Positions 29,865 to 41,263 of a stretch of 64,000 nucleotides of DNA are shown piece by piece (the first letter of the stretch is position 1; each line of letters opens with the position of its first letter). The notes under the pieces were generated by a model, which was not told the DNA's origin, did not search any database, and was given only the letters and a program-made list of their open reading frames with translations. The DNA is from Chloroflexota bacterium (lineage in GTDB: Bacteria; Chloroflexota; Anaerolineae; Anaerolineales; Villigracilaceae), in contig JACRBI010000040.1 in NCBI GenBank assembly GCA_016234495.1, forward strand, positions 62,001 through 126,000, written 5' to 3'. A program made the translations under genes and the position numbers.

Positions 29865-31367
29865 TTATTCGGCGATCATGCTTGCAAACTCGGTCACTAC
29901 ATTCGGGTCAAAGTGAATGCCGGAGTTGGTGAAGATATATTCAAGCGTGTCCATTTTCGACCAGGCGGAGCGGTATGGGCGGTCGGCGGTCAACGCATCA
30001 TAGACATCCGCAACGGAGAAGATGCGCGCCGCCAGCGGAATGGCTTCGCCCGCGAGCCCATCCGGGTAGCCGCTCCCATCCCATTTTTCGTGGTGCGAAC
30101 GGGGGATGTGCATGGCCGGCGCAAGATATGAGATCGGCTCAAGCAATTCAACGGCGATCACAGGATGACGGCGCATGATATCCCATTCATCATCGGTCAA
30201 CGGCCCGGGCTTGAAGAGGATTTCGTCCGGTATGGCTACCTTGCCAATATCGTGCAGCGCTCCGCCGCGCTGAATGTGGATTATTTCAGATTCCGGAATG
30301 CCCATGCGGCGGGCAAGCTTCATGCTCATTTCGGTCACGCGGCGGGTATGGTCTTCTGTATCCCGATCACGAAAGTCCAGCGCCCGCGACCAGCCTTCGA
30401 TGGTCTTGTCATAGGCGAGCGTCAGGTCGCTGTTTGTGCGTTGCAACTCCTTGAACATCACGGCGCTGTCAATTGCAATCGCAGCCTGACCCGCGAGGGT
30501 TTCAAGGAAATTCACCCACTCCACATCCGCTGAAAGAAGCGTGCGGTGGAACACCTCCATCACGCCCAACGGATTCCCTTTCGCGAAGAGCGGCACGGCA
30601 TAATAGTCAATAAAATTCTCAGCGCCGAAATGCGGCGAGCGCAAAAAGCCCAGTTGATTAAACTGCAGGTCGGTGACATGCACAACTCTGCGCTCAGAGA
30701 CTGCCACCCCGGCATAACCTCCGCCAATTGGGAGGGAGGTATGCTTCAGCGCGGTGGTGTAAAATCCAACTCCCGCGGCATGTTCAAGGTGCTGGTTGCC
30801 CCTGTTTAGTAATAAGATGGATGCCGCGTCAACATTCAACTGCGCGCGGACGTGGTCGAGGATCGCGGAGAGTGTGTCGCCAAGGTCAACATTGGTTGTT
30901 ATCGCCAGGTCAATTGCGCGTAACGCGGCAAGTTGCTGCAACTGGCGTTCATTTTTTATTTCCGATAGTTTGAATTTTGTAATGTCCCGTATACAGGTAA
31001 TGATCTGGCGGTTGGCAAGCGGAATAAGGCGCGCTTCATACCAGCCGACATTGAGATTCATGGAGAGGGAGTATTCGATCTGGGTCGCTTTCTTTCCAGA
31101 GCGCACATTGAAGAGGGCATCTGTATATTTTCTGCCAACTTTATAAGGGTATATCTCTTGAATTTTCCGCCCTAAAAATTTTGACGGCGAAAGATATAAA
31201 TGAGTGGAGTCGCCGGATTTGTAATCGAGTATTACTCCATCCTCATTCAGGATAAACAGCAAATCACCAAAGGCCTGAAATATCGCATCCAGTCTTTGGT
31301 CGGAATCAGGCAGGTTTTGCAGTGACATGTCAATAATCATATTTTCCGGATACAGGCGCGATAACAA
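29865..31367 (-). CDS. PAS-GAF-HD-GYP putative cyclic-di-GMP phosphodiesterase
   Basis: A 500-residue soluble sensor protein. Residues about 20-135 form a PAS domain (LDAIFQAFGDLLFILNEDGVILDY), 150-305 a GAF domain, and 325-500 an HD-GYP output domain. The metal motif GALHDIGKVAIPD, HHEKWDGSGYPDGL (the GYP signature) and DVYDALTADRPYR are intact, so cyclic-di-GMP hydrolysis is likely. Start is TTG at 31367 with AAGGAG six bases upstream, much better placed than later ATG codons. It is the last gene of the run from 32407 and ends before a strong terminator. Confidence 0.92.
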   Translation of the reverse strand: MLSRLYPENMIIDMSLQNLPDSDQRLDAIFQAFGDLLFILNEDGVILDYKSGDSTHLYLSPSKFLGRKIQEIYPYKVGRKYTDALFNVRSGKKATQIEYSLSMNLNVGWYEARLIPLANRQIITCIRDITKFKLSEIKNERQLQQLAALRAIDLAITTNVDLGDTLSAILDHVRAQLNVDAASILLLNRGNQHLEHAAGVGFYTTALKHTSLPIGGGYAGVAVSERRVVHVTDLQFNQLGFLRSPHFGAENFIDYYAVPLFAKGNPLGVMEVFHRTLLSADVEWVNFLETLAGQAAIAIDSAVMFKELQRTNSDLTLAYDKTIEGWSRALDFRDRDTEDHTRRVTEMSMKLARRMGIPESEIIHIQRGGALHDIGKVAIPDEILFKPGPLTDDEWDIMRRHPVIAVELLEPISYLAPAMHIPRSHHEKWDGSGYPDGLAGEAIPLAARIFSVADVYDALTADRPYRSAWSKMDTLEYIFTNSGIHFDPNVVTEFASMIAE

Positions 31368-31407
31368 TGATCACTCCTTGTCTACTCTGGCAGATCCCTT
31401 TTTGTTT

Positions 31408-31680
31408 TCAGCCTTGCAAGGCGCAGTTGACCTGTTTTGCGAGATCCGACAATGACCGGGCTCGAATGGAAACGATCAAATCCTGTTCCTCCCTGTTCAA
31501 CGGGAAGGTTTCTCCCAGGTAGCCATTTTGGAGGGCAACGCTCGGGTCGCGCAGCAGCGTGTCACGGAATTGCTGGTTGACGACTGCGGCAGCGAATAGG
31601 CGGCTTATACCGGAAGAAGTATTTAAACGGGAAGCGAGGTTTACCGAAAACGTTTTTTGACATTCAATTGAAGCTAACAT
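31408..31680 (-). CDS. 90-residue protein resembling RiPP leader-clan (NHLP/Os1348-like) peptides
   Basis: I cannot place it firmly. Residues 30-85 read FAAAVVNQQFRDTLLRDPSVALQNGYL, then LNREEQDLIVSIRARSLSDLAKQV. The FRxxLLxDPxxAL ... LxxEExxxLxxIxAxSLxxLA pattern is what small NHLP/Os1348-clan peptides show. It ends VNCALQG with no separate core rich in Cys, Ser or Thr. There is no modification enzyme nearby. Its start overlaps the DUF5317 gene by seven bases, and it is followed after 40 bases by the HD-GYP gene. It could equally be a small regulatory subunit. Confidence 0.6.
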   Translation of the reverse strand: MLASIECQKTFSVNLASRLNTSSGISRLFAAAVVNQQFRDTLLRDPSVALQNGYLGETFPLNREEQDLIVSIRARSLSDLAKQVNCALQG

Positions 31681-32264
31681 ATTTGCGTACCTCTATTCTG
31701 TATTTTTTCCGAGTGTGGCGGGCTGGCAAAGAGCCAGAAAACACCAAGGGCGATAAACACGTCGCCCAGGCTAAATGCTGCTTGATACGGGATCCAGCCC
31801 GGGAGCAGAAAGCGATCCGCCAGCCACTCGAAGCGGGTCCCCTGCGGGTGCAGGAGAATGTCTTTTGGGCCGATGCGGTCGCCGGGGCGGAGTTCCTGCA
31901 ATACATTTTCTGGGACCAAATTGCTTGCTGTCTGCGGGCTGACTGGCATGAAGCCGCCATTTGCGGTCATTACCGCCATATTTAGCGCAACTCCGCAAAT
32001 CAGGAGCGCCATGCCTGCAACCCGGCGGTTGATCAGGGCAAAAGCAAGCAGCAGAATTTGGGAAACGAGCAGGCTGGCGGCTGCCAGCCTATCGGATAGT
32101 AATGTGCGGGTGCCGGGCAGGTAGATAACGATCAGTTGCGGCAGGAAACCGATGAAGACCAGCCAAAGGTGCTTAAGTTCGGGCGCGCGGTAGGGTATAT
32201 TTTGCCAACGCGCCCAGCCAAAGCCAGCCAGCAGCCCAGCTGCGAGAGCGAACAGAAGGATCAT
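31674..32264 (-). CDS. DUF5317 membrane protein
   Basis: A 196-residue protein with five or six hydrophobic helices and the conserved NGGFMPVSP loop (about 110-118), followed by RIGPKDILLHPQGTRFEWLADRFLLPGW and SLGDVFIALGVFWL. This is the DUF5317 pattern, frequent in Actinobacteria, Firmicutes and Chloroflexota, of unknown function. Its ATG overlaps the stop of the 48-residue peptide gene (ATGA, 32261-32264), and its end overlaps the next gene, so all three are translationally coupled. Confidence 0.88.
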   Translation of the reverse strand: MILLFALAAGLLAGFGWARWQNIPYRAPELKHLWLVFIGFLPQLIVIYLPGTRTLLSDRLAAASLLVSQILLLAFALINRRVAGMALLICGVALNMAVMTANGGFMPVSPQTASNLVPENVLQELRPGDRIGPKDILLHPQGTRFEWLADRFLLPGWIPYQAAFSLGDVFIALGVFWLFASPPHSEKIQNRGTQIC

Positions 32265-32407
32265 CTAATCCCGACACCGCCGCCTTCAAGGGGGGCGCCG
32301 GTGCCAAGGACGAGCATGGCAAGCGACACGATGACAAGAATTAACTGGATGTGCTGGCGGTTGAGGTTGCGGGCGGACATGACGAGGAGAGCGAGTTTGT
32401 TTTTCAT
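32261..32407 (-). CDS. 48-residue single-pass membrane peptide
   Basis: This short gene runs from an ATG at 32407 to TGA at 32261-32263. It has a basic N-terminus (MKNKLALLVMSARNLNRQH), one hydrophobic helix (about 18-37) and a Gly-rich end GTGAPLEGGGVGIR. GGAAGGATCTTCTC precedes the ATG, a good Shine-Dalgarno. Four features support it as real: that ribosome site, the ATGA overlap with DUF5317, a -10 and direct-repeat promoter upstream, and the sensible topology. Possible roles are a secreted or membrane signal peptide or a small subunit of the DUF5317 protein. No homology is claimed. Confidence 0.75.
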   Translation of the reverse strand: MKNKLALLVMSARNLNRQHIQLILVIVSLAMLVLGTGAPLEGGGVGIR

Positions 32408-32450
32408 GAGAAGATCCTTCCTTTTTGGCTTAGGTTGAATTGTTGTTTAC

Positions 32451-32488
32451 AATATACAACCACCCAGGCTTCAAAACAGGCTTCAAAA
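32451..32488 (-). promoter_or_regulatory. SARP-type promoter: 12-base tandem direct repeat eight bases before a -10
   Basis: On the minus strand the 12-mer TTTTGAAGCCTG occurs twice in perfect tandem (32488-32477 and 32476-32465). Eight bases (GGTGGTTG) then separate it from TATATT (32456-32451). SARP/BTAD activators bind direct repeats of about one helical turn with the last repeat eight bases before the -10, so the spacing fits. The activator gene at 32631-35852 lies directly upstream. Confidence 0.6.
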
Positions 32489-32494
32489 TTAAAG

Positions 32495-32524
32495 AAAAAT
32501 CAACCTTTGAAAGGCTGATTTTTC
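32495..32524 (-). terminator. Probable terminator of the BTAD regulator gene
   Basis: AAAAATCAGCCTTT pairs with AAAGGTTGATTTTT on the minus strand with almost no loop, followed by CTTTAATTTT. It separates the regulator from the small-peptide operon, whose direct-repeat promoter starts seven bases later. Confidence 0.65.
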
Positions 32525-32630
32525 GGTACGGAGGTCAGTTTTGGCTTTTCTGCCCTGATTCGAGGGTTTTTCAGCCAAAAAACAGCATTTGGCGAAAGTC
32601 TTTTCTGTGGAAAACTTTCAAAAATGTAAG

Positions 32631-35600
32631 TTAGCGAGTCAGGCGGAGGTAAAGTTCTTCGATTTCCTTTGATGGGAGGAAGCCAAGCTGGCGAAGCATG
32701 ACCTCCTGGTATGTTTCGTAAGTCCGGATGATGGAAGCGCGGTCACCTATGCGATGATAAATTTGCATGGTCAGGCAGTAGGCTGCTTCATTTGCCGGCT
32801 CATGCTTCAAAACGCGCTGGCAGGTCGCAAGCGCCGGTTCTGGCAGGGCTTTTTTTAGAAAAAGTTCAGCTAGTGTGAGAAGAGCTGTGATGAATGCCTG
32901 ATGCAGGTGCTCACGCTCAAGCGTCGCCCAGTCGGCATGAATGTCTTCAAGGAAAGAACCTTTTACAAGTTCAACGGCTTTTTGATAATGCTCGATCTGC
33001 TCTTCAAGATTCGCGGTAGACTTGGCGCGGGCGAGGAACGATTCAAAAGCCTCGACATCATATTCAAAGTCGAGTGCGCGATTGAACCTATAGTAAATAT
33101 TTTCATAGGCGATCACTTCCTGCCCGACCGCCCTGCGCAAACGGTAGACATCATTCTTAAATCGCAATTTTATTTTCTGGGGCTCGTCAATCTCCGGCCA
33201 GAGCGTCAACCCAACCTGTTCTTTGGTGAGCGGTTTCTGACTCGTCAGAAAATAAAAGAACAGGTCACGCACAGACTGGGTCTGCCAGTCTGAATGAGTT
33301 AATGGTCTTCCACCCACAGTGACGGATACTTTCCCGAAGGCGTGTATGATCAGATGCGGATTGGGGATCTCTACAACATGTGACATGCGATGCAGCTGGC
33401 GCTTGAGCGCCGGCAATTTGGCAGCCATGCGCCCGGCGCGCGTCAGCAAGTCGCCAACCGCGCGCCCCACTTCGGCATCACGCTGCAAGCCGTTCATCCA
33501 AGTACGCGCCTGATGAGCAGCCACGAGTATGGATTCAGAAATCTGTCCGTGCCGGCCAGTAAGAGTATTTATTATTTTTCTGGCAGCCTCGTAGTAATTT
33601 GTTTGGTAATAAGCCGCTGCAAGCCAGACACGGCTGGCGTCACTTTCCATCTTGCGTCCATCCTCGGTGAAGCAATGCTCAGCCTCTTCCAATTCATCCA
33701 CCGCCCGAAGCGATTCTCCTTCCATAAGAGAGAGCCTTCCCCACCCGAGGTTAAGAAGACCATTCTCATACAACGAATCGCTTGATTGAATCCTGGCGGC
33801 GGCATCTTCCAACTTTTGGCGGGCGATCATACTGTTTTTTTGAAGCAAGGCAAGGCTGGCTTGCGCCGTGGTTAGATAAAAGAGAAGGAAACGATCATTC
33901 ATTCCCTGAACAATTTCCTGCGCATGTAGATAATTGCTTTGCGCCGCTAAAATGTCTTCCAACTCTGCGTACATATCTCCCAGCCCAATCGCAATGACAG
34001 CTTCCATCCGTGTATATCCGCTGCGTTGGGCACATACCATCCCTTCCTCATAAGCAAGAGATGCCTTCTCGTAATCTCCTTGAAAATGACGCAGAACACC
34101 CAGGTTATTTAATAAGTTGGCCTGCCAGGAGAGGTTCCCTTCCTTCCGCCAAATTTGAAGCGCCCTCTCATACGAAGCTCCGGCCTCTGCGTAATTTCCA
34201 AGCGCATTGTATATCATGCCGGTTTCCATCAGCAAGATCGGGATGCTGGAAGTATCGTTCAGACGGTAATAAAGATTTAGTGATTTTTCAAAAAAATCAA
34301 CGGCTTGCCGCGCCTGCCCCAATCGATAGAGCGCCAACCCCTTGACCCGCAGCGCTTCAGCATAAAGGGTTTGCAAATCATCCCTGGCTTCCGTCATCTC
34401 AATCACTTCGTTGGCATCCTGCAAAGACGCGGTGAAGTCCCCGATAAAACGATAGGCAACTCCACGCCGCGCCAGTGTCATTGCCAGGCCAGGCAAATTC
34501 TTATCGGAACGAAAAATATGCTCAGCCTGATCCAACAGACTCAGCCCTTCGCGCAGGTTTCCCTTCATATAAATGATCGCACCGCGAATTGAAAGCAAGC
34601 CCGGTCGAGTCCGCAGCATGGACGGAGGCAGGTCGCCCAGCCAGGATTCCAATGTGACAATGGCGCGTTTAAGCATGGAGGTGGAAGCCCGTTCGATCAT
34701 CTCCGCGAGAATTTCCCGGTCATTCAATTGCCTGTAAATATAGTAGGCTTTTTCCCACTCCTCCAAATTTTCAAAGGCCCGCCCCAAATTCATCAAAATA
34801 GGCTTGACCTCTGCCGGGTGTGCCTGCTCAAAGCGTGTCCGTAGAAAATCACGGAATAGATGATGATAGCGCATCCACCTACCGTCCGCGCCGACCGGCA
34901 GCACGAAGATATTGTTCTGGACCACTTCGCTGATCAGTCCCTGCCAATTCTGCGGTTCAACGTAAAGCGGAGCAAGCACAGCCTGACAGAGAGGCGCATC
35001 GAACTCGCCCAGCATGGATGTGCGCAAAAGGAATTCGCGCAAAGCCGGTGACTGACGATCCAGCACTTGTTGTCCGAGAAAGTCAGACAAGCCAACGCCG
35101 GTGCCTGTGGCAGGCTTTATGAATTCTGCCGATGCCCCCCCTACAGCAGAGAACTGCAGGCCAGTGATCCAGCCTTCTGTTTTTTCGATCATATTTTCGG
35201 CTTCTTCATCCGAAATTTGCAGGTTCTTGTTCTGGGCAAAAAACGCCTGGATCTCCTCAACATTAAATGCGAGGTCTGAAAACCCCAGGCCAGTGACCTG
35301 CTCGCGCGCCACCATCAAAGACAGGTCGGGCATGCTTGTCAGAATCCGTGAAGATATGATGATATGACAGTTCTCATCAACAAGTTGGATAAATCGATTT
35401 ACAAATGCAAGGATGGGTTGAACGTTTTCGACCAGATGAAAATCATCGAGCACAAGAATGAAATGTTCATGGATCTGCTCGTAGGTTTCGTTTACCAATG
35501 TGACCAGCATCCTCTCCACATCCTGCTCAAACGAGGTCAGGCTGGCAAGCATGGATGCCGACTTGCTGCCAAACTCCGGAAAGCGCTCCGTGATCGATGC

Positions 35601-35852
35601 GATCAAATATGCGATAAAGCGCTGAGGCTCGCGGTCCATTTCGTCGAGAGCCAGCCAGCAGCAGGGCAATTCACTTTGTTGGGCAAGGTCGATCAAGAGG
35701 GAAGTTTTTCCGTAACCAGCGGGAGCGGAAATGAACACCAGTTTCTTATCAAGAGAATCGAACAACAGGTCAAGCAGGCGCTTGCGTGTGACGTATCCGG
35801 CACGGCGTCGTGGAAGAACGATCTTTGTTTTACTTACAGGAATGGATGTCAT
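32631..35852 (-). CDS. MalT-like STAND ATPase regulator with C-terminal winged helix and BTAD domain
   Basis: Start placed at the ATG at 35852, which has TAAGGAAAAA before it (the frame extends eight codons further). The protein has 1073 residues. A STAND/NB-ARC ATPase has Walker A SAPAGYGKTSLL (about 42-53) and Walker B FILVLDDFHLV. A middle array of TPR-like repeats (about 400-780) follows. Instead of the LuxR helix-turn-helix of MalT, the C-terminus carries an OmpR-like winged helix (LWPEIDEPQKIKLRFKNDVY) and a BTAD helical domain, as in SARP activators, but at the opposite end from AfsR. The direct-repeat promoter just downstream is the obvious candidate target. Confidence 0.9.
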   Translation of the reverse strand: MTSIPVSKTKIVLPRRRAGYVTRKRLLDLLFDSLDKKLVFISAPAGYGKTSLLIDLAQQSELPCCWLALDEMDREPQRFIAYLIASITERFPEFGSKSASMLASLTSFEQDVERMLVTLVNETYEQIHEHFILVLDDFHLVENVQPILAFVNRFIQLVDENCHIIISSRILTSMPDLSLMVAREQVTGLGFSDLAFNVEEIQAFFAQNKNLQISDEEAENMIEKTEGWITGLQFSAVGGASAEFIKPATGTGVGLSDFLGQQVLDRQSPALREFLLRTSMLGEFDAPLCQAVLAPLYVEPQNWQGLISEVVQNNIFVLPVGADGRWMRYHHLFRDFLRTRFEQAHPAEVKPILMNLGRAFENLEEWEKAYYIYRQLNDREILAEMIERASTSMLKRAIVTLESWLGDLPPSMLRTRPGLLSIRGAIIYMKGNLREGLSLLDQAEHIFRSDKNLPGLAMTLARRGVAYRFIGDFTASLQDANEVIEMTEARDDLQTLYAEALRVKGLALYRLGQARQAVDFFEKSLNLYYRLNDTSSIPILLMETGMIYNALGNYAEAGASYERALQIWRKEGNLSWQANLLNNLGVLRHFQGDYEKASLAYEEGMVCAQRSGYTRMEAVIAIGLGDMYAELEDILAAQSNYLHAQEIVQGMNDRFLLFYLTTAQASLALLQKNSMIARQKLEDAAARIQSSDSLYENGLLNLGWGRLSLMEGESLRAVDELEEAEHCFTEDGRKMESDASRVWLAAAYYQTNYYEAARKIINTLTGRHGQISESILVAAHQARTWMNGLQRDAEVGRAVGDLLTRAGRMAAKLPALKRQLHRMSHVVEIPNPHLIIHAFGKVSVTVGGRPLTHSDWQTQSVRDLFFYFLTSQKPLTKEQVGLTLWPEIDEPQKIKLRFKNDVYRLRRAVGQEVIAYENIYYRFNRALDFEYDVEAFESFLARAKSTANLEEQIEHYQKAVELVKGSFLEDIHADWATLEREHLHQAFITALLTLAELFLKKALPEPALATCQRVLKHEPANEAAYCLTMQIYHRIGDRASIIRTYETYQEVMLRQLGFLPSKEIEELYLRLTR

Positions 35853-35981
35853 TTTTTCCTTAAAGCACGGATCCACGTAACCAAAAAAGAATTTTACAAC
35901 TCAAACTCCGCGGTTCAAATTTATATTTTATCGCTTTATTCATTTTTTAAGCCTGCCGTAGACTTTATAGTTGAACATGCG

Positions 35982-36085: not shown

Positions 36086-39000
36086 ATGTCTTTCGCCCAC
36101 TTACACGTCCACACCGAATATTCCCTGTTAGACGGCTTCTCGAATATCTCGAAGCTGGTCAAACGCGTCAAAGAGATGAACATGGAATCGGTTGCCATCA
36201 CGGATCATGGCACGATGTTTGGGGTGATCGATTTTTACAAAGCGGCGAAAGCAGAGGGTGTCAAACCGATCATCGGACTCGAAGCTTACATGGCCGCGCG
36301 CACGATGAAGGATAAGGATTCAAAACTCGATCGCACTTCCTCGCACCTGCTCCTGCTTGCTGAAAATGAAACTGGCTATAAGAATCTACTCAAGATCGCA
36401 TCCGCCGCGCAGATGGACGGCTTTTATTATTATCCGCGCATCGACCATGACTTCCTTGCCTCACACGCGGAAGGATTGATCTGCACCTCGGGCTGCATGT
36501 CTGCGGAAATTCCGCGCGCGCTGTTAAATGAGAACCCCGCCGAAGCCGTAAAGAAATGGGATTGGTATTACGATGTCTTCGGCAAAGACAGGTTTTTTGT
36601 CGAACTGCAGCAGCACAATATCAAAGAGATCACGGACTTAAACAAGCAGCTCCTGAATTTAGGCGCGCGCTATTCGGCCAGATTCATCGCCACCAATGAC
36701 GTGCATTACATCAATCAGGAAGATGCGAAGCTGCAGGAAATTCTGCTCGCCATTCAAACGCAGACCGTGCTATCTGACCCAGACCGCATGAAGATGAGCG
36801 ACGACTCATACTATCTGCGCTCGCCGCTGGAGATGAGCAAGATCTTCTCCGAAGTCCCCGACGCATTGAGCAATACACTGCTCATCGCCGAACGCTGCAA
36901 TGTGGATCTGGGATTCAAAGGCTATCACCTGCCCGAGTTTGCCGTCCCTGAAGGGTACACGCCAGAATCCTATTTGCGCGCGCTGTGCCAGCAAGGGGCG
37001 CAGATAAAATTCAAAGGTGACGCAACCAGCTCAAAGGTACAGGAAAGACTCGAGTACGAATTAAGCGTCGTCCACGAAATGGGATTCGATGCCTACTTCC
37101 TGATCGTGTGGGACCTGTGCCGATTCGCCCGTGAAAATGGCATCTGGTACAACGCGCGCGGTTCGGCGGCTGGTTCGATCATCGCCTACACACTTGATAT
37201 CACACGGGTTGACCCGCTTGAGCACGCCCTCATCTTTGAGCGCTTCCTGAACCCGGGACGCATCTCGATGCCCGATATTGACCTCGACTTCCGCGACGAC
37301 CGCCGCTCAGAAATGCTCGAATACACCGCGCGCAAATACGGCGACGACAAGGTGGCGCAGATCATCACCTTCGGCACGATGGGATCGAAAGCCGCCCTGC
37401 GCGACGTGGCACGCGTGATGGAAATCCCATTGCCTGAAATTGACAAGGTTGCAAAACTTGTGCCATTCGTTTCAGGCCGCGCCACCACCATGAAGGACGC
37501 AATGGAAGTTGCGGAGTTCAAAAAGATTTACGATTCGCAGCCGCACATCCGCGAAGTGGTGGATATTGCCGCGCGCATGGAAGGCACTGTGCGCAATGCC
37601 GGCACGCACGCAGCCGGTGTGGTGATCTCGGACGAATCCATTCTCGAATATCTGCCGCTGCACCGCCCAACGTCCAACTCGGAAGAGACACCGATCAAAT
37701 CAGTGACCCAGTTTGAAATGGGCATTCTCGATTCGCTGGGCATGTTGAAGGTGGACTTCCTCGGCCTGATCACTCTGACCGTGATGGCGCGCGCCTGCGA
37801 CATGATCGAAAAACGTCACGGCATCAAGCTGGACCTGAATAATATTCCAATTGACGATCCGAAGTCTTTTGAGCTGATGGGCAACGGACATACCGCCGGC
37901 GTATTCCAGGTGGAAGGCGGCGGTATGACGCGCTGGCTTGTGCAGATGAAGCCCAAGAATCTCGATAACATCATTGCGATGGTCGCGTTGTACCGCCCGG
38001 GGCCGATGGCATTCATCCCCGATTACATCGCGCGGATGCATGGCGAAGCGGAAGTGGAATATCGCCACCCGGATATGGCTCCGATTTTCCAGGACACATA
38101 TGGCATTCCTGTTTATCAGGAACAGTTGATGCGCGCCGCTGTGGAACTGGCGGGCTACACTCCATCTGAATCAGATGAGCTTCGCAAGGCGATCTCCAAG
38201 AAGAAAAAAGAAGACATTGACAAGCACCGCGCCAAGTTCGTGAAGGGCGCAGTCGAAAAAGGCATGGATCAATCCACTGCCGACGCGATCTACATGGATT
38301 GGGAAGAGTTCGCGCGTTACGGTTTCAACAAGTGTTTGCCCGGCGACGTGGAAGTATTAGACGCATCCACAGGCCGCCTTGTAAAAGTTGAAGATTTATA
38401 TCGTGGGCTGGCGCATATCGAAGAAACTTTGTCGTGCGATATTCCCTCATTGAAATTAAAGAATCAACCGGTGACCAAAGTAATGGAAAACGGCATCAAA
38501 TCTGTTTTCCGCCTTACCACCGCGCTGGGACGCACCATCGAAGCGACTGGCAATCATCCCTTCTATACATACAACGGCTGGCGCAAGCTCGAAGACCTGC
38601 AACCTGATGAATTCATCGCCGTTCCACGAATTATTCCAGTGGAAGGACAGAAGGAATGGCCAAATCATGAAGTAATCGCGCTCGGTCATTTACTGGCCGA
38701 GGGGAATCTGTGCCACCCTCATTCTGTCTATTATTACAATCAGGATGAAGAACAAGTTAAAGATTTCATTCAAGCCGCCGAGGCGTTTAAAAATGTCAAA
38801 TGCACGACGGCCATGCACAAAGGCACTTATTCCATTTATGCCGCCCGCGTGGACAAACGCTTTGCGCCCGGCATTTTCACGTGGGCGGGGGAACTTGGCA
38901 TGTTGGGGACAAATGCGCGCACAAAGGAAATCCCTGCGCCGGTCTTTGAACTGACCAACCGCCAGATCGGGCTCATGATCAGCCGCATGTGGGACGGTGA

Positions 39001-41263
39001 TGGTCATGTTGATGTGCGCGGACGCAGTTTGTATTACGCCACTGCGTCACAACGCATGGCCCAACAACTCCAGCACTTGTTATTGCGGTTCGGCATTATC
39101 AGCCGTTTGCGGACTGTGGAATTCCCCTACAAGGAAGGCCGAATTGGATATCAGGTCTTCATCACAGGCCACGAAAACATCAACACCTTTAAGAGGCAGA
39201 TCGGATGTTATTCTGTCTGTCAGAAACGCAAACAAGCGCTTGATGAACTGACTGCAGCCATTCCCCCGCTTGCAGTTGGAACAAAAGACATAGTCCCGAC
39301 AGCTGTGAAGGAATATGTTCGTACAGCCAAGGATCAGTCAGGCCTGACGTGGAAGGAAATTTCAGCAAACACAGGCATTGCTCCGCGTGAATTTTCCCCC
39401 ACAAATTCCGCCGGCAAGGTTGGTTTCGGAAGAACCACCCTGCAAAGATTGGGCAATTACTTTGACGACCCCGACATCAAACGCTATGCCGAAAGCGACC
39501 TTTACTGGGACCGCATTGCATTCATCGAATATGTCGGCGAGAAACAAACATACGATCTTGAGATCGCCGAAACGCACAACTTTATTGCCAATGATATTCT
39601 TGTCCACAACAGCCACGCCGCCGATTATGGCGTCATTGCGGTTCAGACCGCGTATTTAAAATCAACATACACCGCCGAATACATGACGGCGCTGCTCTCC
39701 GCCTCTGCGGGGCAGACCGAAAAGGTGGCCTTCTATGTGGCGGATGCGCGTACGATGGGCGTGCCGGTACTCGCGCCAGATGTCAACTCGTCGGGCTGGG
39801 ATTTTGAAATCGAAGATATCGAAGGCAAACCATCCATCCGCTTTGGATTGGGCGCGATCAAGAACGTCAATCAAGGCGCAGTGGACGCGATCATCGCAGC
39901 GCGGCGCGAAAATAAATTCACAGACCTGAACGACTTCGCCCGCCGCGTTGACCTGCGCACCGTCGGCAAGCGCTCGCTGGAATGTCTGATCAAAGTCGGC
40001 GCGCTCGATCAATTCGGCAATCGCGCATCCATGCTTGCCGCACTCGACCGCATCATTGCCATCAGCAGCAACCACTTCCGCGCAGCCGACGCGGGGCAAA
40101 TGAGTCTCTTTGGCGCGGCGACCGGCATCGTCGAAGAGATCCACCTGCCCGAAGTCAAGAACGTGGACAAGCGCGAAATGCTCAACTGGGAGCGCGAACT
40201 CATCGGCCTGTACATCACCGATCATCCGCTCAACGAATACCAGGCCACGCTCGCGCAGATCGTCAGTTATTTCTCCGGGCAGCTGCCCGAAGCCACGCAC
40301 GAAGAAAAAGTGCGCGTGGCGGGGCTGGTCAATGTCGTCCGGCCATATACCACCAAGACCGGCAAAGGCATGGGCTTCGTCAGCATCGAGGATATTCAAG
40401 GCAACATCGAACTCGTGCTCTTCCCGAAAACATGGGACAAGTTCCGCGAGGTGCTTACCATCGGTCAGATCGTGATCGTCGAAGGCAAGGTGGATCTGGC
40501 AAACCTGCCGCCAAAAATTCTTGTGGATGTGATCAAGACTGAAATTAAAGTCACCTCAGCCGCGGATGAACTTCCAGAGATGCCGCCTGCGCCCTCGGAC
40601 GAACCCGCGCCGCTTCATTACAAATCGACAACTGCTCCTGCCCAAAAAGCGACTCAGCCCCCAAAGCAGAATCTAGCAAAAACCACCCCCCTTGCATCCC
40701 CCCAAATTCCCCGGGAATTTGGGGGGAGTGAGGGGGGTGACATGCCGCCCCCGCCGGATAACTTTCCCGACGGCTGGGACACGCAATGGCAGCCGTCTTT
40801 TGATGATGCCGCCATTGCATCCAAGCCTGCGCCGAAATTCAAGAAGGATGAGCCGATCACCCCGCCGCTGTTGACGCGCGCGGTGTCAGCGCTGGTTGAG
40901 GCCTTGCCCCATGTCGAAGCGGCAGAGCAGACAGAAGAACGCCGCGAAGCGGTCCTTCAATCCATGTATGTGCCGCTGGTGAAAGAGAACAAGGACAAGG
41001 AACATCCGCCCCGACAGTTGACTGTGACCCTGCGCTCGACCGGCGACCATGAACGCGACAAGCGCCGCATCCGCACATTGCACGGCAACCTCACGCGCTA
41101 TCACGGGCGCGATAAATTCAGTTTTCATATTTTTGAAAACAACAAAGGCTATCTGATAGATTTCCCCAATGACACCACGCGTATCTGCCCCGAGCTTTTG
41201 GATCAACTGAAAAAGGTGATCGGCGAGGAAACCTGGCGCGTGGAAGAGATCATGTTTCAGTAG
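36086..41263 (+). CDS. dnaE: DNA polymerase III alpha subunit (DnaE) carrying an intein
   Basis: A 1725-residue precursor; removal of the 426-residue intein leaves 1299, normal for DnaE1. It is the replicative polymerase catalytic subunit. The N-terminal PHP domain begins FAHLHVHTEYSLLDG, and catalytic aspartates lie in ISMPDIDLDFRDDRR near residue 396. GFNK at 746-749 runs into the intein and SHAADYGVIAVQTAYLK resumes after it. A C-terminal OB-fold is followed by a Pro-rich linker holding a GC palindrome segment (about 1533-1552). The gene is closed by a 40-base perfect palindrome with a T run. Confidence 0.96.
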   Translation: MSFAHLHVHTEYSLLDGFSNISKLVKRVKEMNMESVAITDHGTMFGVIDFYKAAKAEGVKPIIGLEAYMAARTMKDKDSKLDRTSSHLLLLAENETGYKNLLKIASAAQMDGFYYYPRIDHDFLASHAEGLICTSGCMSAEIPRALLNENPAEAVKKWDWYYDVFGKDRFFVELQQHNIKEITDLNKQLLNLGARYSARFIATNDVHYINQEDAKLQEILLAIQTQTVLSDPDRMKMSDDSYYLRSPLEMSKIFSEVPDALSNTLLIAERCNVDLGFKGYHLPEFAVPEGYTPESYLRALCQQGAQIKFKGDATSSKVQERLEYELSVVHEMGFDAYFLIVWDLCRFARENGIWYNARGSAAGSIIAYTLDITRVDPLEHALIFERFLNPGRISMPDIDLDFRDDRRSEMLEYTARKYGDDKVAQIITFGTMGSKAALRDVARVMEIPLPEIDKVAKLVPFVSGRATTMKDAMEVAEFKKIYDSQPHIREVVDIAARMEGTVRNAGTHAAGVVISDESILEYLPLHRPTSNSEETPIKSVTQFEMGILDSLGMLKVDFLGLITLTVMARACDMIEKRHGIKLDLNNIPIDDPKSFELMGNGHTAGVFQVEGGGMTRWLVQMKPKNLDNIIAMVALYRPGPMAFIPDYIARMHGEAEVEYRHPDMAPIFQDTYGIPVYQEQLMRAAVELAGYTPSESDELRKAISKKKKEDIDKHRAKFVKGAVEKGMDQSTADAIYMDWEEFARYGFNKCLPGDVEVLDASTGRLVKVEDLYRGLAHIEETLSCDIPSLKLKNQPVTKVMENGIKSVFRLTTALGRTIEATGNHPFYTYNGWRKLEDLQPDEFIAVPRIIPVEGQKEWPNHEVIALGHLLAEGNLCHPHSVYYYNQDEEQVKDFIQAAEAFKNVKCTTAMHKGTYSIYAARVDKRFAPGIFTWAGELGMLGTNARTKEIPAPVFELTNRQIGLMISRMWDGDGHVDVRGRSLYYATASQRMAQQLQHLLLRFGIISRLRTVEFPYKEGRIGYQVFITGHENINTFKRQIGCYSVCQKRKQALDELTAAIPPLAVGTKDIVPTAVKEYVRTAKDQSGLTWKEISANTGIAPREFSPTNSAGKVGFGRTTLQRLGNYFDDPDIKRYAESDLYWDRIAFIEYVGEKQTYDLEIAETHNFIANDILVHNSHAADYGVIAVQTAYLKSTYTAEYMTALLSASAGQTEKVAFYVADARTMGVPVLAPDVNSSGWDFEIEDIEGKPSIRFGLGAIKNVNQGAVDAIIAARRENKFTDLNDFARRVDLRTVGKRSLECLIKVGALDQFGNRASMLAALDRIIAISSNHFRAADAGQMSLFGAATGIVEEIHLPEVKNVDKREMLNWERELIGLYITDHPLNEYQATLAQIVSYFSGQLPEATHEEKVRVAGLVNVVRPYTTKTGKGMGFVSIEDIQGNIELVLFPKTWDKFREVLTIGQIVIVEGKVDLANLPPKILVDVIKTEIKVTSAADELPEMPPAPSDEPAPLHYKSTTAPAQKATQPPKQNLAKTTPLASPQIPREFGGSEGGDMPPPPDNFPDGWDTQWQPSFDDAAIASKPAPKFKKDEPITPPLLTRAVSALVEALPHVEAAEQTEERREAVLQSMYVPLVKENKDKEHPPRQLTVTLRSTGDHERDKRRIRTLHGNLTRYHGRDKFSFHIFENNKGYLIDFPNDTTRICPELLDQLKKVIGEETWRVEEIMFQ
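38333..39610 (+). mobile_element. Full-length LAGLIDADG intein in DnaE
   Basis: 426 codons (precursor residues 750-1175), exactly in frame. It starts with Cys (CLPGDVEVLDASTGRLV, block A). Block B has EATGNHPFYTYNGW (TxxH-like, with the conserved His). Two endonuclease motifs are LGHLLAEG and LMISRMWDGDGH with acidic residues retained. Block F/G ends YDLEIAETHNFIANDILVHN, and the extein resumes with Ser. All residues for class 1 splicing are present, so splicing and homing may both be functional. The insertion site FNK/SHA differs from the cyanobacterial split DnaE site, which is just before CFNK. Confidence 0.95.
40684..40739. repeat. Family B GC-rich palindrome, in frame in dnaE
   Basis: CACCCCCC ... 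CCCCCCAAATTCCC and GGGAATTTGGGGGG ... GGGGGGTG make a 56-base nested inverted repeat. It is translated around ASPQIPREFGGSEGGDM in the C-terminal linker. Confidence 0.9.

Follow-up and report, generated by a model that had tools for sequence, protein, structure and literature searches.

The 64,000-nucleotide stretch analyzed here (the window; contig JACRBI010000040.1 of the Chloroflexota bacterium assembly GCA_016234495.1) contains a locus of five genes, which encode, in order of transcription, a large putative activator, a 48-residue micropeptide, a DUF5317 membrane protein, a 90-residue protein and a PAS-GAF-HD-GYP protein (Table 1). An earlier reading made from the letters of the DNA (the sequence-only reading) had proposed these five open reading frames (ORFs), and all five were recovered at the claimed positions on the minus strand, with a DnaE-like gene, divergently oriented, on one side and a SecA-like gene on the other (names taken from the translations). 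The overlaps it had claimed are likewise present, 4 bases between the peptide and DUF5317 genes and 7 bases between the genes for DUF5317 and the 90-residue protein. A Pfam scan of the module returned DUF5317 (E 2.5e-35), PAS_4, GAF and HD_5, TPR, and BTAD (E 7.1e-18). The genome (4.1 Mb in 57 contigs) contains one DUF5317 match.

Table 1. Features of the locus in the window, and DUF5317 fusions in other loci
Feature	Position	Strand	Basis	Remark
Activator: MalT-like STAND ATPase, TPR region and C-terminal winged-helix/BTAD (SARP) half	32631..35852	-	ORF, Pfam, NCBIfam, structure match	
Probable terminator: inverted repeat AAAAATCAGCC..GGTTGATTTTT	32495..32523	-	read by eye	3' of the activator gene
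Putative operator: two tandem direct repeats TTTTGAAGCCTG, period 12	32465..32488	-	sequence, relatives	
Likely -10 element TATATT	32451..32456	-	sequence, conserved spacing	8 bp beyond the second repeat
48-residue micropeptide: basic N-terminus, one helix (3-36), GTGAP, tail LEGGGVGIR	32261..32407	-	ORF, alignment, Ka/Ks, AlphaFold2	
DUF5317 (PF17248): five predicted long helices taken as transmembrane, conserved loop 102-165	31674..32264	-	Pfam, alignment, AlphaFold2	
Os1348/NHLP-clan-like 90-residue protein	31408..31680	-	NCBIfam match, alignment	no visible variable core
PAS-GAF-HD-GYP protein, motifs HDIGK and HHEKWDGSGYP	29865..31367	-	translation, Pfam	start TTG 31367 or ATG 31340
DUF5317-MFS_3 fusion	L125:2274-4436			behind HD-GYP gene; BTAD regulator further upstream
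DUF5317-MFS_3 fusion	L129:4594-6531			behind HD-GYP gene; BTAD regulator further upstream
DUF5317-MFS_3 fusion	L133:4630-6339			behind HD-GYP gene

The five-gene locus is a conserved system. All 24 relatives found in assembled genome contigs, whose titles mostly name Anaerolineales or Chloroflexi, contain the activator, DUF5317 and the 90-residue NHLP-like protein, and all have a peptide ahead of DUF5317; the HD-GYP gene follows in the same five-gene order in 23 of them, the exception being a locus with its activator 2.3 kb off (L054). DUF5317 was detected in 119 of 400 Chloroflexota genomes, and Thermotoga maritima and Thermus composti, used as named controls, also gave matches. A tblastn search of plasmids with one DUF5317 sequence (L191) gave no match.

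A phylum-wide set comprised 140 distinct DUF5317 loci, misses included, after 5 duplicates were dropped and with short loci (L001-L031 and L056-L084) outside the count. The expectation that the short peptide and a BTAD regulator would accompany DUF5317 across the Chloroflexota was borne out: the activator lies immediately upstream on the same strand in 72 of the 140 loci, and a peptide with the motif described below was found in 65 of 73 activator loci versus 7 of 67 others, where the 73 follow a slightly looser criterion than the 72 (no lower distance bound) and wrongly include L134; the pattern overlooked L087, whose peptide reads GAL. Of the 72 loci, 65 have the NHLP-like gene and 35 an HD-GYP gene downstream. 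Scanning of 10 genes downstream of the module where HD-GYP is missing identified six histidine kinases (two with a receiver domain), two response regulators, one PucR-type regulator and one Ham1 protein, so that the output slot varies while its signalling character is mostly retained. The sequence-only reading had treated the five genes as one module. They are all linked here, but the more constant pair is the peptide and DUF5317 rather than the regulator and HD-GYP, as the output gene varies and about half of the DUF5317 loci have no regulator directly upstream.

The activator is best started at the ATG at 35852, which has AAGGA upstream, in a frame open from a GTG at 35876. Pfam and NCBIfam scans of this protein matched none of the Rap, Rgg, NprR, PlcR or PrgX families, returning MalT-like STAND, TPR and BTAD instead. 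It combines a winged helix with a BTAD domain, as SARP-type regulators do, the winged helix itself having no separate Pfam match. When the C-terminal 252 residues were compared with known structures, AfsR was matched (8hvr, E 0.0018, over residues 56-250 of the piece; 8k60 and 8jke, E 0.023), and a TPR protein scored equally well (E 0.0017).

The SARP-style promoter that had been proposed between activator and operon held up. In the available part of PMC10936776, SARP repeats are spaced 11 or 22 bp apart and the last repeat lies 8 bp from the -10 element, while PimR also uses a 10-bp unit (available part of PMC5930380). The window has tandem repeats of which the last lies 8 bp from a TATATT box, at a period of 12 and not 11 or 22. 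Of 65 peptide genes, 57% are preceded by a repeat of 12-bp period (at least 8/9 matches), compared with 2.4% of 495 control starts, which are those of genes of at least 150 residues in the same loci with module genes still included; with periods of 10-13 pooled, the counts are 43 of 65 and 32 of 495. TAnnnT follows at exactly 8 bp in 29 of the 32 peptide upstream regions with AAGCC-type repeats, the group to which this figure applies, against 2.6% in shuffles.

The repeat itself is TTTTGAAGCCTG in relatives of the window and very unlike it elsewhere (TCTGTCCCCACC in L091, GAGACTCTTTAG in L096 and TCGTAAGCACTT in L102). Within the 4.1-Mb genome, the operator pattern of the window has one mismatch-free site and four further places at three mismatches; a reversed control pattern gave 4 hits. 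In L305 (1297-2581), five tandem peptide genes each carry their own repeats and a -10-like box, and four of their tails are identical and one different. Hairpin-like stretches were seen by eye after the activator gene in many relatives, as in the window. The regulatory layout is well supported, and the operon is very probably under SARP control; we infer that the activator binds the repeats. Judged by its domains and promoter, the locus is one in which a predicted AfsR/SARP-type STAND-TPR activator sits beside a single predicted operon with a SARP-type tandem repeat promoter.

In Streptomyces, the small ORF afsS lies beside afsR, and the resemblance to this pair is close. AfsR likewise unites STAND, TPR and SARP domains, and its direct target promoter has tandem repeats that overlap the -35 element and end 8 bp from the -10 (available part of PMC10936776). 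The two systems differ in that the SARP half is C-terminal here and N-terminal in AfsR, that the repeat period is 12, and that the small ORF is not AfsS, being instead a predicted transmembrane peptide tied to DUF5317 and HD-GYP.

The micropeptide matched no Pfam or NCBIfam family, and its AlphaFold2 model, a helix over residues 3-36, is of low overall confidence (mean pLDDT 73). It is under purifying selection (pN 0.30, pS 0.67; median Ka/Ks 0.29 across 292 pairs); by segment, pN/pS is 0.19 in the pre-helix block KINRQHIQ, 0.21 in GAP and 0.62 in the tail. Peptides collected from 72 of the 140 loci (76 in total) share one plan, namely a basic N-terminus, one transmembrane stretch, a small-Gly-Ala-Pro site and a short, often Gly-rich tail, although G[AS]P was a selection rule and its invariance among the 76 is not evidence. 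Later profile searches recovered peptides with the rule dropped, although the profiles themselves derived from motif-picked peptides (A1 from 32 and A4 from 54 of the 76). A peptide-like ORF with GVP for GAP was also seen in L308 (5292-5504); the other module profiles had no hit in the surrounding 10 kb.

The distribution of these peptides follows that of DUF5317. In a class-level survey of 199 genomes, 60 with DUF5317, the A4 profile gave a hit at E ≤2e-5 in 55 of the 60 and in none of the other 139, figures to be read with the reservations that some of the same genomes went into A4, which makes the 55 of 60 partly circular and leaves the 0 of 139 unaffected, that the absence of DUF5317 from the 139 was judged by single-sequence search, and that the surveyed genomes are related, so that Fisher values overstate the association. 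The five misses are G022, G090, G120, G150 and G184, and weaker hits in genomes lacking DUF5317 fall in frames of at least 191 residues. In a family-level survey (100 genomes), the A1 profile gave a hit at E ≤2.6e-12 in 35 of 37 genomes with DUF5317 and in none of 63 without; one miss has a contig ending at the DUF5317 gene (G596, L309) and the other a partial DUF5317 hit (G644). Weaker hits (best E 3.2e-8) occurred in seven of the 63, of which five are true peptide relatives (G130, G307, G404, G579 and G593) and two sit in frames of 139 and 548 residues (G591 and G592).

Unlinked relatives had been named in advance as what would speak against a shared function of the genes. Such genomes exist: three have the activator, a GAP peptide and the NHLP-like gene at a site without DUF5317, which is elsewhere in the genome (G028, G062 and G590), and in five others the peptide and DUF5317 are on separate contigs, a split that fragmented assembly could account for (G001, G006, G040, G072 and G113). 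The peptide and DUF5317 nonetheless co-occur in all of these genomes, which argues for their link. The two act together probably, and we hold this with considerable confidence; judged from co-occurrence, their putative partnership is well supported.

A group of operons without DUF5317 (L246, L301-L304 and L306, in five genomes and as a second operon of G639) retains the activator, peptide, NHLP-like and HD-GYP genes. Their peptides have lost the Gly-Ala pair before Pro, reading QGP, QGP, TKAP, TKSP and NGP, and QKP in G639, a genome that carries both operon types, with each peptide form matching its operon. These operons also bear on a different explanation, in which the micropeptide would never be released but remain in the membrane as a small subunit, packed on DUF5317 via its GxGA face, in a complex that monitors the envelope and relays to HD-GYP. 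Small proteins such as AcrZ and KdpF tune membrane complexes in this manner. GxGA may be a helix-packing motif and is lost together with DUF5317, a peptide persists where DUF5317 is gone, the pre-helix block is strongly constrained, and the low-confidence AlphaFold2 model is a single long helix. We consider this unlikely, though by no means negligible, because the tandem operator-peptide units hint that the dose of the peptide matters on its own, and because of the short tails of a second peptide family and the fusion of some DUF5317 proteins to MFS exporters, both described below.

DUF5317 scored 122.1 bits against PF17248 (curated cut-off 25). Its AlphaFold2 model (pLDDT 92.9) has helices at 2-20, 34-48, 58-78, 85-101 and 166-180. 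In alignment A2, which omits 19 of 133 non-redundant references, the invariant residues are G91, N95, G104, M106, P107, D150, G167, D168 and G174. The loop between the last two helices is rich in conserved residues (NGGxMP, D150 and S165, with G167 and D168 next to it). Basic residues in the short loops, taken with the positive-inside rule of thumb, place this loop outside, on the same predicted side as the peptide tail.

A second arrangement was found in 33 loci, where an HD-GYP gene stands directly before DUF5317 with no activator between them; a BTAD regulator lies further upstream of HD-GYP in 8 of the 33. A tiny transmembrane ORF, filtered by size, hydrophobicity, a tail of 2-17 residues and a basic residue, occurs just ahead of HD-GYP in 24 of these 33 loci, whereas among control genes 30 of 670 have one; one of the 24, in L183, looks wrong, a better candidate ORF existing there. 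Twenty-two of the 24 end in [AGSVTC]xA plus 4-7 residues, compared with 8 of 49 other tiny transmembrane ORFs of these loci, and their tails include PTKWN, QGKWH, TAKWH, SFKGW and TLKPY. Signal peptidase cleaves after small-x-Ala, and by their predicted anatomy the members of this second family are signal peptides whose mature product would be very short. ORFs of 26-33 residues that start with MKW (or VKW) and end in KW plus 1-2 residues were observed just upstream of HD-GYP in L121, L144, L197, L198, L199, L200, L202 and L203.

Among eight long DUF5317 frames that were scanned, three are fused to an MFS_3 exporter (‘transmembrane secretion effector’) domain and five contain DUF5317 only. A tiny ORF was found at the fusion loci L129 and L133, and none was detected at L125. 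The fusions suggest transport, and they count against a reading of DUF5317 as the receptor of its own or a neighbour's peptide, relaying to HD-GYP or a kinase while general peptidases mature the peptide. Such a role would suit the position of DUF5317 directly after HD-GYP, several of the genes overlapping, in 31 of the 62 loci that fall outside the regulator context and have at least 1.5 kb of upstream sequence, and the small-x-A ends of the second family would suit a general signal peptidase. In the peptide family of the window, however, Pro follows Ala, and HD-GYP is retained in the operons that lost DUF5317; we regard the receptor role as quite unlikely. The exporter fusions, together with the tandem copies and the small hydrophobic character of the peptide, could also fit a membrane toxin or bacteriocin with DUF5317 as its immunity or export protein, and an immunity gene would yield an identical co-occurrence with the peptide. 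The dedicated SARP-type regulator and the signalling outputs in many loci make this very unlikely.

The sequence-only reading had called the 90-residue protein leader-clan-like, which stands in part. It matches NF038399 (Os1348 family NHLP clan) at E 1.6e-6 and 28.1 bits, below the 40-bit cut-off, and is therefore termed NHLP-like only; 71 of 73 members of its alignment match the same family at E ≤0.01. A variable core was not seen in the displayed rows, which are one in three of alignment A3 (3 of 75 references omitted). The protein was considered as precursor of a ribosomally synthesized and post-translationally modified peptide (RiPP) and set aside on this ground. A RiPP locus built on it would explain the clan match, but the protein ends with the leader-like domain, and no maturase stood out among recurring neighbours, most neighbour clusters being without assigned identity, so that this explanation appears extremely unlikely. 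The protein looks like a conserved accessory, judging by its alignment, rather than a RiPP precursor.

When neighbours beyond the module were clustered, the largest cluster mixed DUF5317 with other proteins, the next one outside the module was a family of about 1311 residues, encoded upstream in 20 loci and on the other strand, and the remaining clusters occurred in at most 14 loci. HD-GYP phosphodiesterases are characterized by HD and HHExxDGxGYP motifs, and the fifth protein of the window has both in the form given in Table 1 (HD_5, E 9.7e-38). The adjacent DnaE-like ORF (36086-41263, plus strand, 1725 residues) seems to bear an intein, read by eye as the stretch from CLPGDVEVL to ETHNFIANDILVHN within the polymerase.

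Taken as a working model, the STAND-type activator would bind the repeat and turn on the peptide, DUF5317 and their partners. The peptide would enter the membrane N-in via its basic N-terminus, leaving the tail outside beside the conserved DUF5317 loop. DUF5317 would then recognize the small-Gly-Ala helix end and mature or export the tail as an oligopeptide signal. Accumulating peptide might be sensed by the activator through its TPR domain or by DUF5317; another possible reader is the PAS-GAF-HD-GYP protein, which would lower cyclic di-GMP (c-di-GMP) as the signal builds up; sensing by the TPR domain would switch the operon on and create positive feedback. STAND regulators elsewhere are switched by an inducer, such as MalT and GutR (available part of PMC10936776). 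In other lineages, the peptide/DUF5317 pair would be plugged into histidine kinases, response regulators or HD-GYP, with the activator present or not. We infer export and signalling by the peptide. That the locus is a self-contained module under SARP control, with an exported peptide that DUF5317 matures or carries out of the cell, is nearly, but not quite, an even prospect, and maturation of the exported tail by DUF5317 in particular seems plausible to a degree that stops a little short of probable.

Several observations weigh against this exported-peptide model. Pro after Ala disfavours type I signal peptidase, and this is the order found in the window's own branch. The KINRQHIQ block is constrained like the GAP site, and the tail has no such constraint. 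DUF5317 has no evident catalytic motif, and a Foldseek search of its model against the PDB gave a best E of 2.2, with Z ≤5.2 over 74 residues when 65 chains were re-compared. Two of the 55 genomes with A4 hits (G074 and G139) match mid-profile only and have peptides of the second type. In the activator tree, the operons lacking DUF5317 group into a single clade (support 100/100) and thus represent one event, not six; among their peptides one retains the Ala (TKAP) and three retain a Gly, and the retention of a peptide without DUF5317 means that it may have a non-released role. Finally, the peptide was undetected in 27 of 34 DUF5317 loci of neither arrangement and in 9 of 33 loci of the HD-GYP arrangement, some of them at contig ends.

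The locus looks like a putative, undescribed peptide-signalling system. In AgrB-AgrD, a small precursor is encoded beside a polytopic membrane protein that processes it. The small putative precursor gene here likewise adjoins that of a polytopic membrane protein, its would-be processing factor; the difference is that the invariant residues of DUF5317 include no Cys or His, and the 32 aligned window-type peptides contain no Cys. RRNPP quorum sensing receptors of Firmicutes contain TPR, as does the regulator here. As in those systems, the gene for a short export-type peptide adjoins a regulator gene, and peptide copies are repeated, as whole genes here and inside the propeptide there (available parts of PMC10075063, PMC9765709 and PMC11343458). 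The regulator here is instead of the STAND-SARP type, the partner is DUF5317 and the phylum is Chloroflexota. The gene arrangement and small-x-A ends would fit an RRNPP-type layout, in which an exported propeptide with a mature C-terminal oligopeptide is encoded beside its receptor. Johnson is said to have linked a Thermotoga maritima peptide signal to exopolysaccharide in 2005, with a c-di-GMP-linked output; a short peptide with such an output would be common to both systems, and T. maritima has DUF5317.

That T. maritima peptide signal is mentioned in the available part of PMC4187201, and no open-access paper was found that names TM0504 together with Thermotoga maritima. No paper naming DUF5317 was found in the open-access literature searched, a coverage that excludes most subscription journals. 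The same literature contained nothing joining SARP, Chloroflexi and BTAD; Chloroflexi, quorum sensing, oligopeptide and HD-GYP; or Chloroflexota, small peptide and SARP. One paper does combine Anaerolineae with quorum sensing and c-di-GMP, and the RRNPP literature among the matches listed concerns Firmicutes/Bacillota, as far as its available portions go.

Peptide signalling itself is already known; what this locus would add is a novel membrane partner, and should DUF5317 turn out to be the maturation factor, the system would be a class of its own. More broadly, and as a tentative idea that we hold to be rather doubtful, DUF5317 may define a new class of membrane proteins that mature or export oligopeptide signals, and with the two micropeptide families may constitute a system of peptide signalling with c-di-GMP, two-component and SARP outputs. 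It would perhaps be the first of its kind in Chloroflexota, and the T. maritima signal may also belong to it. Sludge, sediments and the subsurface harbour abundant Chloroflexota, few of which have been cultured. If true, a peptide signal tied to c-di-GMP would offer a handle on the behaviour of these bacteria, and DUF5317, a domain of unknown function, would become a testable peptide partner.

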